NCBI RefSeq assembly: GCF_016918765.2
Contig: NZ_CP092104.1
Span: 372,001-436,000, forward strand
Reading direction: 5' to 3'
Length of the DNA: 64,000 nt
Source of the DNA: Flagellatimonas centrodinii
GTDB taxonomy: Bacteria > Pseudomonadota > Gammaproteobacteria > Nevskiales > Nevskiaceae
Shown: piece after piece, positions 44,522 through 47,688 of the stretch
Position numbering within the stretch: the first letter of the stretch is position 1
Layout of the letters: each line of letters opens with the position of its first letter
Made by a program: the position numbers and the translations under genes
Notes under the pieces: generated by a model
What the model was told of the DNA's origin: nothing
The model's input: the letters and a program-made list of their open reading frames with translations, nothing else
The model's database searches: none

Positions 44522-45841
44522 TCAGCTGCTGGCGGCGGATGTCTCGGGGAACAGGGCGAAATGGCTCACCGGGTCGACCAGGCCCTTGACGGTGATCGGT
44601 GGCCGGATCTCCAGCCCGTCCTCGCCGGCCAGGGCGACGGTGCGCCGGTCAATCAGGATTTCACCATTCTGGGCTTCGCCACAAAGCCTGGAGGCCAGGT
44701 TCACGGTGGCACCGACGGCGGTGTATTCCAGCCGCGAGGCCGAACCGATGACACCGACGGTCACCACGCCGGTAGCGACCCCCAGACCGATGCCGAGGGT
44801 GTGCTCGTCGGTGCTCCAGCGTTGGGTCAGGGCCAGTCCGAGATGTCGAATCCGGCGCGCCATTTCCAGTGCGCAGCGGGCATGGTGCTCCACCGGCAGC
44901 GGGGCCCCCACCAGGATCAGGATGCCGTCACCGGCAAAATCCTTGATGGTGCCACCGAAGCGGCCAACCACTTCACCGACCTCGTCGTAGTACTCGCGCA
45001 ATACCCGCAGCACGCCGGAGGACTCGTTGGCCGCCGCGTAGGCGGTGAATCCGCGCAGGTCGCAGCAGACCACGCTGATCTCCAGCAGGTTCTCCTGCAT
45101 CGCCGACTTCATGCCGCGTTCCGACACCAGTTTGGCGACCTGCGGCGACAGGAACCGGCTCATGAACTGCCCGCGCTGCCCCTGCAGCACGTGGTAATGC
45201 ACGGCGCCCACCAACACCACCACTTCACCGATGACGGTGGTCACCGCTGCCCAGTCATGCGGCAGCACGAATCCGGCCATGAAGAATGGCACCGCGAGGG
45301 CCATGGCGATCACCCGGATGCGCTCGGCACGATCGGGTCGACGGTTGAGCAACAGGAGAATCGCCGCCAGCGCCGACAACGCAGCAAACTGCATTGGCAG
45401 CGCAAACAACCAGAAGCCGGGTCGGCGGTAGAAGGCCTCCAGACCGTGGGTGTCGATGGCCTGAAGAAAGTCGGTGACTCGCAGCTCCGGCCAGAGCGCG
45501 GAGAACACCAGGTACAGCACGGTAGCGAACTGGCCGGCACGCAAGCTGCGGTCGCCGGCGCGGGTATTGAGGCCGGGGGCCGCCGGCAGCGTCTGGCGCA
45601 CGCGCAACAGCCATTCCAGCAGCGCCATCATCGCCACGGCTTCGAACAGGGCGGCACCGAGCGACCACCGGGCGATCTGCGGGCCTGTCGCGGCCACCAG
45701 ACCGATCTGCAGCAGGATGGCGATGCCCAGCGCCGCCAACGACGTGGCCAGGGCCGCACTGGTGGCCGAGCGGCGGTCGGCCGACCAGAAGGCCAGGGCC
45801 ATGCCCAGGGCCATCATCGCCACCAGAAAATGTTGGGTCAC
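44522..45841 (-). CDS. Membrane-bound class III adenylate cyclase
   Basis: 439 aa if started at GTG 45841; ATG 45817 is the main alternative and the frame stays open to 46009. Six or seven membrane helices (about 3-215), then a class III cyclase domain (about 240-420): VVCCDLRGFTAYA (first metal Asp), GGTIKDFAGDGILILVGAP (second metal Asp) and LEYTAVGATVNLASRL. The last segment usually reads GD(T/A)VN; here GATVN. Substrate-defining Thr of YTA is kept, so cAMP is the likely product. No regulatory domain other than the membrane part. Confidence 0.88.
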   Translation of the reverse strand: MTQHFLVAMMALGMALAFWSADRRSATSAALATSLAALGIAILLQIGLVAATGPQIARWSLGAALFEAVAMMALLEWLLRVRQTLPAAPGLNTRAGDRSLRAGQFATVLYLVFSALWPELRVTDFLQAIDTHGLEAFYRRPGFWLFALPMQFAALSALAAILLLLNRRPDRAERIRVIAMALAVPFFMAGFVLPHDWAAVTTVIGEVVVLVGAVHYHVLQGQRGQFMSRFLSPQVAKLVSERGMKSAMQENLLEISVVCCDLRGFTAYAAANESSGVLRVLREYYDEVGEVVGRFGGTIKDFAGDGILILVGAPLPVEHHARCALEMARRIRHLGLALTQRWSTDEHTLGIGLGVATGVVTVGVIGSASRLEYTAVGATVNLASRLCGEAQNGEILIDRRTVALAGEDGLEIRPPITVKGLVDPVSHFALFPETSAASS

Positions 45842-45991: not shown

Positions 45992-46005
45992 CATGCACTT
46001 GCATG
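45992..46005. promoter_or_regulatory. Inverted repeat 1 upstream of the AbiEi-like gene
   Basis: CATGCA-CT-TGCATG within TTCCATGCACTTGCATG. It resembles the second site 56 bp downstream (TTCCGTGCACCTTTGCAC). Paired inverted repeats are the known operator arrangement for AbiEi autoregulation. Confidence 0.6.
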
Positions 46006-46038
46006 ACAAGTCTAATGTCGAGCTTTAGTTAAAAAGTC

Positions 46039-46067
46039 TTGCATTCCGTGCACCTTTGCACTTAAAT
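46039..46067 (+). promoter_or_regulatory. Promoter with inverted repeat 2 in its spacer, upstream of the AbiEi-like gene
   Basis: TTGCAT (46039-46044), 17-base spacer, TTAAAT (46062-46067). The inverted repeat GTGCA-CCTT-TGCAC (46048-46061) fills the spacer, so a bound protein would block polymerase. 48 bp before the ATG at 46115. Confidence 0.6.
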
Positions 46068-46114
46068 GATTACACCCTTCGACGGCGGCGGGCCCTCATC
46101 CGGTCCGTTGGTGA

Positions 46115-46732
46115 ATGGACGAAATCAACAAATCCGAGCAGATCCTGCGGCTGGCACAGTCGCTCGGCGTGTTGCGTCCCAAGGATCTGGTGCCATTCGG
46201 TATCCAGGCCGAGTATTTGCGCCGACTGTGCGACAAGGGCTTGATCAAGAAAGTGGGACGCGGCTCCTACGTCCCGGCCAAGGCAAGGATGAATGCGCGG
46301 CTGGCACTGGCGGTGGTGGGACGCGCGGTCCCCAATGGCGTCATCTGCCTGCAGTCGGCGCTGGCCTTTCACGGTATCGGTGAAGCGGACCCCGAAGTGG
46401 TCTACGTGGCCATCGAGCGGCGGGCAGCGCGGCCGCGGGTCGATCATCCCGAGGTGCGGGTGGCCCGTCTCGGTGGCCCGGCGTTCACCGAAGGGGTGGA
46501 GCTGCATACCATCGAGCATGTCGAGGTAGCGGTATACGGCCTTGAAAAAACGCTGGCCGACCTGTTCAAGTTCCGCAACAAGATCGGGCCGCATATTGCC
46601 GTCGATGCCCTGCGGGCCGCCATCAACCAGCGCCGCGTGTCGCTGGACCTGCTCTGGCACTACGCCAGCCTGTGTCGGGTGGAGCGGATCATGCGTCCCT
46701 ACGTCGACGCCCTCACCCTGGCCCTGCATTGA
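46115..46732 (+). CDS. Solo AbiEi-like (type IV antitoxin family) regulator
   Basis: 205 aa. N-terminal winged helix (about 8-55: EQILRLAQSLGVLRPKDLVPFGIQAEYLRRLCDKGLIKKVGRGSY) followed by the AbiEi C-terminal domain with LQSALAFHGIGEADPEVVYVAI and a ending region EVAVYGLEKTLADLFKFRNKIG. AbiEi normally represses the abiE operon and neutralises the AbiEii nucleotidyltransferase toxin; no AbiEii gene follows. Instead the stop overlaps the pldA start (TGATG). Either an orphan antitoxin or a transcription factor now controlling pldA. Confidence 0.88.
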   Translation: MDEINKSEQILRLAQSLGVLRPKDLVPFGIQAEYLRRLCDKGLIKKVGRGSYVPAKARMNARLALAVVGRAVPNGVICLQSALAFHGIGEADPEVVYVAIERRAARPRVDHPEVRVARLGGPAFTEGVELHTIEHVEVAVYGLEKTLADLFKFRNKIGPHIAVDALRAAINQRRVSLDLLWHYASLCRVERIMRPYVDALTLALH

Positions 46733-47688
46733 TGCTCGATCTCCGCTGTAACCGCACACGACGCCGGCTCGCCGGCCTGATGGTATTACTGCCTTCACTG
46801 GCGATGGCGGAATCCCCATCCCCCGGTCGGGCAGCCGGCCCGCAGCCGCTGCTGGCCGACCCCCCGGCTGCCAACGCCAGTGCGCAGGCACGCGACCCGG
46901 CAGCGGTCGGCGACGATTTCGACAACCGCGATGGGGGCTTCCTCGGGTTCCAGCGGCAGGCAGAAGACGCCTACTCGATCATCTCGGTGGCGCGCGGCCT
47001 GTCCACCCACAAGCCGATGTACCTGCTGCCGGTGGCCTACAGCCCCAATGCACCCGGACTCGATACCGAGGTGCTGTTCCAGATCAGCGCCAAGCAGAAG
47101 CTGTTCGCCTCACCCTGGTATTTCGGCTACACGCAGAAGTCGTTCTGGCAGGTCTACGACGAAGGCCGATCACGCCCGTTCCGCGAGACCAACTACAACC
47201 CGGAGCTGTTCTATCGCTGGACACCGGACCCCGAGCGCTGGCATCACTGGGGCGCCGACTTCGGCATCGAGCACGAATCCAACGGCCAGGACGTGCCGAT
47301 GTCACGCAGCTGGAATCGTCTCTACATCGCGCCGTTCCAGGCCAAGGGGCAGACGCTGCGGTACCTCAAGTTCTGGTATCGCATTCCCGAAGAGCGCAAG
47401 GACAGCCCGGGCGACCCCAAGGGCGACGACAACCCGCTGATTCATCGCTTCTTCGGCTATGCCGAGGCCAACGTGCAACGCCAGCTCGACGGCGGCGGCC
47501 TGGCGCACCTGATGCTGCGCGGCAACCCCTCGACCGGCAAGGGTGCCGTGCTGCTGAATTTCACCTGGCCGTCAGCCGATGGATACGTCTTCTACATGGT
47601 GCAGTTGTTCCACGGCTATGGCGAAAGCCTGATCGACTACGACCGGTCGATCACCCGCATCGGGCTGGGGTTCGCACTGGCGCGCTAG
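46732..47688 (+). CDS. pldA: Outer-membrane phospholipase A (OMPLA)
   Basis: 318 aa. Start ATG 46732 shares a base with the AbiEi-like stop. Signal peptide (LAGLMVLLPSLAMAE), a 50-residue Ala/Pro-rich lead, then the 12-strand barrel. The active-site residues are seen in FGIEHESNGQDVPMSRSWNR: His and Ser of HESNG and the Asn of SWNR, as in the E. coli His142-Ser144-Asn156 triad. YNPELFYRW and GYGESLIDYDRS are family motifs (calcium-site region). Hydrolyses phospholipids that reach the outer leaflet. Confidence 0.93.
   Translation: MLDLRCNRTRRRLAGLMVLLPSLAMAESPSPGRAAGPQPLLADPPAANASAQARDPAAVGDDFDNRDGGFLGFQRQAEDAYSIISVARGLSTHKPMYLLPVAYSPNAPGLDTEVLFQISAKQKLFASPWYFGYTQKSFWQVYDEGRSRPFRETNYNPELFYRWTPDPERWHHWGADFGIEHESNGQDVPMSRSWNRLYIAPFQAKGQTLRYLKFWYRIPEERKDSPGDPKGDDNPLIHRFFGYAEANVQRQLDGGGLAHLMLRGNPSTGKGAVLLNFTWPSADGYVFYMVQLFHGYGESLIDYDRSITRIGLGFALAR

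Follow-up and report, generated by a model that had tools for sequence, protein, structure and literature searches.

A toxin-less AbiEi-family protein encoded directly upstream of pldA as a putative dedicated regulator of outer-membrane phospholipase A in Nevskiaceae

The window analyzed here, 64,000 nucleotides of Flagellatimonas centrodinii DNA, carries on its plus strand an AbiEi-like regulator gene (46115-46732, 205 amino acids) directly followed by pldA (46732-47688, 318 amino acids), the gene for outer-membrane phospholipase A (OMPLA). As the original prediction had it, the stop codon of the first gene overlaps the start codon of the second in the sequence TGATG (46730-46734; TGA 46730-46732, ATG 46732-46734). 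A conserved promoter-like element lies upstream of the pair at 46038-46076 on the plus strand, and beyond it is a divergent neighbor (44522-45835, minus strand) with a class III nucleotide-cyclase domain (PF00211, 7.4e-16).

Assignment of the first gene to the AbiEi family, also part of the original prediction, is borne out by profile and structure searches. The 205-aa product matches Pfam AbiEi_4 (PF13338, E 2.2e-9), the only match to this family in the genome, and the PADLOC AbiEi profile covers nearly its whole length (1.4e-65). Its AlphaFold model has a mean pLDDT of 94.1; Foldseek returns S. agalactiae AbiEi (6y8q, E 2.5e-11) as the top match for the predicted fold and also pairs the protein with Rv2827c (1zel, E 6.2e-4), while the AbiEi profile matches 6y8q at 1.6e-19. 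Against the NCBIfam AbiEi antitoxin equivalog the protein stays below threshold (E 0.19). Judged from these matches and the predicted structure, the protein is a complete two-domain AbiEi, with an N-terminal winged-helix (wHTH) domain and an AbiEi C-terminal domain. Throughout, the abiEi start is the position aligned to the Met of the window's gene; three loci (L047, L048, L050) have neither ATG nor GTG at this position, and inspection by eye reveals no clear Shine-Dalgarno sequence there.

The pldA product matches PF02253 (PLA1) at 4.4e-63 and OMPLA 1qd6 at E 6.3e-28, and its N terminus, read by eye, resembles a signal peptide. The motifs HESNG (residues 181-185) and SRSWN (191-195), encoded at 47272-47316 on the plus strand, align with the active-site motifs of 1qd6. 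Pattern searches found H-x-SNG in 53/53 family PldA sequences and SRSW[ND] in 48/53, the five unmatched sequences all belonging to g9. By its PLA1 family membership and His-Ser-Asn active-site motifs, the sequence is that of an OMPLA. OMPLA clears misplaced phospholipid from the outer leaflet and protects outer-membrane lipid asymmetry; to our knowledge, no dedicated transcriptional regulator of this enzyme has been described. There is one PLA1 match in the F. centrodinii genome. Across a family sample of 58 genomes from the Nevskiaceae/Solimonadaceae group, whose named relatives include Solimonas, Sinimarinibacterium, Hydrocarboniphaga, Panacagrimonas, Fontimonas, and Stenotrophobium, pldA is single-copy in 53, 27 of which lack an AbiEi of the clade described below. 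Given that single-copy pldA is widespread in the family whether or not this AbiEi is present, it is best read as a housekeeping OMPLA under a dedicated regulator.

Orthologs of the window's AbiEi occur in 26 of the 58 genomes, 25 at 60-100% identity and one as a contig-end fragment (L121 in G026, whose contig begins within abiEi and which is omitted from counts of 25). pldA lies directly 3' of abiEi in every one of these carriers, which span six genus groups (g1, g5, g7, g8, g11, g12); the pair is therefore conserved in the relatives, where the original prediction had proposed to look for it. A search of 369 genomes across the class found no member of the pldA-linked clade outside the family, the best other match having 49% identity. 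A branch of length 0.98 with 100/100 support sets the 25 full-length pldA-linked AbiEi apart from all others in the tree, in which AbiEii-linked AbiEi do not form one group. Our literature search, as judged from summaries of its results, returned no description of an AbiEi-pldA pair, and no paper was found that treats AbiEi together with Solimonas.

Mean identity over 300 genome pairs is 73% for AbiEi and 55% for PldA, with a correlation of r 0.64 between the two, and AbiEi is the better conserved protein in 98% of the pairs. The chromosomal site is also shared: tblastn of the flanks placed a cyclase relative 5' of 20 of the 26 pairs, flanks being short in the remaining six genomes, and at six of the nine pair loci examined for neighbors the cyclase gene and abiEi are separated by the gene for a Na+/H+ exchanger that has a TrkA_N domain. 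Empty sites are found in abiEi-less relatives, where pldA is adjoined by the cyclase (G003) or by the exchanger (G005, G016, G034). This fixed site and the correlation of identities suggest vertical descent and not mobility. Mapped on the PldA tree, the presence and absence of abiEi needs four changes, two of which are forced by well-supported branches. One genome, G044, falls within a group that bears abiEi but itself has only pldA, and its pldA locus shows neither cyclase nor exchanger within the 6 kb examined.

Directly downstream of abiEi, where a type IV AbiE toxin-antitoxin locus has its AbiEii gene, the window has pldA instead. AbiEii adjoins the clade abiEi in none of the 26 pair-bearing genomes, in agreement with the earlier claim that the gene lacks its toxin at the locus. 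AbiEii (PF08843) was undetected anywhere in 15 of them; some of these genomes are drafts, so absence here means that none was found by PF08843. The other 11, F. centrodinii included, contain at least one AbiEii, never adjoining the pair. A toxin partner elsewhere had been named as a finding that would count against the original prediction, and such genes do exist, but this objection is weakened by their location. The one AbiEii match of F. centrodinii itself is 2.6 Mb from the pair on the same contig and sits behind a separate AbiEi of another subtype (PADLOC AbiEi 4.8e-71); this second pair is at L002:711-2392, about 3.003 Mb on C1. More distant AbiEi genes (34-49% identity) have the usual partner: AbiEii is directly downstream in 37 of 44, a gap of 99-132 nt separating the matched stretches in most cases, after exclusion of 3 weak rows and 13 weak or fragmentary rows. 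Alignment A2 omits L103 and L112. No pldA was found in the flanks of the distant loci examined (about 1.5 kb; 5 kb for two). Among toxin-less distant AbiEi genes, L147 has a HATPase and a methylase-like gene alongside, L149 a Fic-domain gene on the other strand, and L151 a Schlafen/AlbA_2 gene.

With AbiEii genes in 11 pair-bearing genomes, the protein could still be an antitoxin acting in trans on toxins encoded elsewhere, with pldA merely the next gene. Its C-terminal domain would fit such a role, being as conserved within the clade (mean top-residue frequency 0.80) as the N-terminal wHTH domain (0.82). However, a conserved C-terminal domain need not mean toxin neutralization, since repression by S. 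agalactiae AbiEi is reported to require the full-length protein (PMC3985639). Four residues that are near-fixed among AbiEii-linked AbiEi (T89, T90, W97, and C150) are altered in the pldA-linked clade, and the F. centrodinii AbiEii already has its own AbiEi. Weakened by this and by the 15 genomes in which no AbiEii was detected, a role in trans appears extremely unlikely. The DNA-binding domain has changed as well: at the beginning of the predicted third helix, every member of the pldA-linked clade has Q31, A32, and E33, residues present in no more than 10% of AbiEii-linked AbiEi.

The upstream DNA of AbiEii-linked AbiEi genes contains, near the start codon, a dyad with a span of 42-58 bp (46-54 bp in most), which was significant in 20 of the 27 genes tested (37 AbiEii-linked genes less 10 without a locus; p-values from 60 shuffles each). 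All seven genes with neither partner downstream were also tested, and five have a significant dyad. These dyads resemble the S. agalactiae operator, given as TGTTGCTTTTA-N27-TAAAAGCAACA (PMC3985639). Going by these upstream sequences, a long start-proximal dyad is a general operator architecture among ordinary AbiEi genes. Several loci (L086, L087, L089, L098, L105, L108, and others) have long dyads with arms of up to 20 perfect bp. The pldA-linked clade departs from this pattern, with a significant dyad in only 3 of 25 loci, none of the three having the usual span, and with no usual dyad operator in the window itself (z -0.4); the long inverted-repeat operator found at the promoter of type IV AbiE systems is thus missing from the clade. 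We infer that the altered operator and the altered recognition region together are the trace expected from rewiring; loss of the dyad operator fits loss of autoregulation too. A degenerate dyad of about 50 bp, from a TGTT box to a CACAG-like box ahead of the start codon, looked plausible by eye and was rejected, the mean z for 12-bp arms being -0.02 over 25 loci. A TTnnCACAG-like box is conserved just 5' of the abiEi start in many pairs.

The original prediction had singled out two other sequences as operators, the inverted repeats CATGCA-CT-TGCATG (45992-46005) and GTGCA-CCTT-TGCAC (46048-46061). Both are present as perfect repeats, but they are not supported as a regulatory signal. When the 165-nt region was dinucleotide-shuffled 1000 times, a repeat with 6-bp arms turned up in 24% of the shuffles, and 8.2% had at least as many repeats with 5-bp arms as the 4 observed; the sole mildly unusual figure is the 2.1% of 1000 shuffles with at least two TGCA-containing repeats. 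Neither palindrome is conserved, the best 14-mer matches upstream in 24 relatives having on average 5.38 mismatches (5.69 in shuffled sequence) for one repeat and 5.75 (5.68) for the other. Near chance level and unconserved, the two repeats were rejected as operators. The second was also said to lie in a -35/-10 spacer, and it does fall between TTGCAT and TTAAAT, although a simple sigma-70 scan leaves this pair unreported while the element there is conserved in relatives.

That element has the consensus CTTGC-N13-TGTTnTTAAATATATACA and in the window holds TTGCAT (46039-46044), a 17-nt spacer, and TTAAAT (46062-46067). A motif search found it in 20 of 22 relatives' upstream regions, about -65 to -95 from the start (22 of 25 regions were used, near-copies being dropped; L026 and L027 did not fit). 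The motif scores 26.5 bits, compared with 12.9-14.3 bits in five shuffles, a margin that is only a guide since the control consists of five shuffles and the sequences are related. A sequence model of the element (R1) then finds 23 sites in the 58 genomes, one in each genome concerned and all at the promoter of the pair, and none in the 32 family genomes without the pair. Twenty of these 23 are the training sites, so that the independent evidence consists of G008, G019, and G040 and of the absence of second sites, in a search whose stricter filters lose weak matches. The window's own site is found at E 0.0166; the element is undetectable in G001 and G002, which are of the same genus and bear the pair, and the truncated G026 is also missed.

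The same element was sought in front of pldA genes that have no AbiEi, and it is absent in 27/27 such genomes, where no score exceeds 2.5 bits, against 19.4 bits for the lowest-scoring site of the family. The 2.5-bit score, in G010, beat its 100 shuffles and is therefore not simply noise. Dyad symmetry within the element is 0.49, compared with 0.47 expected from column composition. Without symmetry beyond its composition the element is at most a candidate operator, and a promoter function by itself could account for its conservation.

At the junction of the two genes, the earliest possible pldA start is placed -32 to +86 nt relative to the stop codon of abiEi, with a median of 21 over 25 loci. 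Six of 25 pairs have a terminator-like G+C-rich hairpin followed by T residues between the genes (L033, L049, L051, and L138 in g7; L034 and L035 in g12). Four of these were folded, with z from -1.8 to -3.3, and a stricter terminator scan reports the hairpin in L033 and not in L034. The window's own junction has no such hairpin. Where it occurs, transcripts from upstream must read through it, and pldA there may be attenuated or otherwise sourced, which argues against plain co-transcription in those six pairs. The loop of the hairpin varies and the stem is kept; it is a possible attenuator of pldA.

These hairpins, together with pldA starts as far as 86 nt past abiEi and with the 27 relatives in which any pldA expression occurs without abiEi, would suit a reading in which most pldA expression is driven by a promoter of its own or by a read-through promoter and AbiEi regulates only itself or other genes. 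Such an arrangement sits poorly with the linkage in all 26 carriers, with genes that overlap or lie close to each other, and with an element that occurs once per genome and solely at the pair locus. An internal pldA promoter was also looked for as silent-site conservation within abiEi, and no clear peak was found (fourfold-site identity 0.51-0.70 per 15-codon block). Separate expression of pldA, which the original prediction had named as a finding that would count against it, is accordingly an unlikely account of the locus.

Gene order invites a further reading, in which the pair is a toxin-antitoxin-like or abortive-infection module: AbiEi would silence the effector PldA until phage or envelope attack, and phospholipid breakdown would then kill or stop the cell. 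The regulator comes first and the enzyme second, as in the abiE operon, and pldA occupies the position that AbiEii has in 37 of the 44 distant loci. AbiE is reported to be a phage-defense toxin-antitoxin system (PMC3985639), and the hairpins of the six pairs would hold the enzyme below the regulator. The properties of PldA nevertheless point the other way: it is single-copy in most of the family regardless of AbiEi, and as an exported protein it requires no cytoplasmic neutralizer; the fixed site and correlated identities, moreover, suggest vertical descent over mobility. We regard such a module as very unlikely. A hybrid defense or self-damage module, in which an AbiE antitoxin swapped its toxin, a nucleotidyltransferase, for an enzyme that degrades the envelope and is held low until phage or envelope attack relieves the regulator, is likewise given very little weight. 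The suggestion in the original prediction that the enzyme takes the place of the toxin consequently holds for gene position and is unsupported as function; with pldA single-copy in 53/58 genomes, 27 without clade AbiEi, PldA is an unlikely functional replacement for the toxin.

The explanation that we favor is that a toxin-less type IV (AbiE) antitoxin has probably been domesticated and now serves pldA as its dedicated, local transcription regulator. It draws on features read from sequence, namely the AbiEi fold, the linkage to pldA, the lack of an adjacent AbiEii, the single clade, the constraint on AbiEi, the conserved element, and the loss of the usual dyad. The core of the original prediction, an antitoxin-type regulator recruited to pldA, stands on the 26/26 linkage, the single clade, and the 15/26 genomes without a detected AbiEii; the inverted repeats drop out as operators. 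Under domestication, AbiEi and PldA would be made largely from one transcript starting at the 46038-46076 element, with PldA translated by coupling or reinitiation at TGATG. AbiEi would bind the element through its winged helix, with the C-terminal domain assisting as it does in the S. agalactiae protein, and would keep PldA low until a signal, probably envelope-related, lets it rise; PldA itself would act as an ordinary OMPLA. By family precedent only, repression is likelier than activation: AbiEi and Rv2827c are reported to repress their own operons (PMC7319586, PMC3985639), which makes the AbiEi described here a probable repressor.

If this is correct, the pair is an example, found family-wide, of an antitoxin that has become an apparent gene-specific regulator, for which comparison material is at hand in the AbiEii-linked relatives, the AbiEi-less relatives, and the empty sites. 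It would also supply a putative dedicated OMPLA regulator that is directly testable. Were the module reading true, it would be a toxin-antitoxin system that exchanged its toxin for a membrane enzyme.

The pair shares with AbiE of S. agalactiae and with Rv2827c/Rv2826c the AbiEi family, the two-domain fold, and the placement of the regulator first of two genes. Unlike those systems, it has no AbiEii beside it and has pldA as the second gene, it is missing the long inverted-repeat operator, and its AbiEi is altered at the recognition helix and at residues of the C-terminal domain. Orphan or solitary antitoxins serving as regulators are a known theme, and this AbiEi resembles them in being without a toxin; what distinguishes it is an orphan state that is fixed across six genus groups within a single family, with another gene in the partner's place. 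Literature on orphan antitoxins as regulators, as far as its summaries go, yielded no case of AbiEi with pldA. AbiEi of Mesorhizobium huakuii has been described as a wider transcriptional regulator and is, like the present protein, viewed as a regulator of cellular genes, though it remains paired with AbiEii and the expression changes are possibly indirect (PMC8436566); here, by contrast, the toxin has been lost and the regulator gene is physically linked to a single cellular gene. PldA, finally, belongs to the same enzyme family as 1qd6 and related OMPLA entries, with active-site motifs that align, and differs from these entries, and from the OMPLA of the 27 relatives whose pldA has no abiEi, in being encoded directly behind the gene for a putative dedicated DNA-binding regulator.
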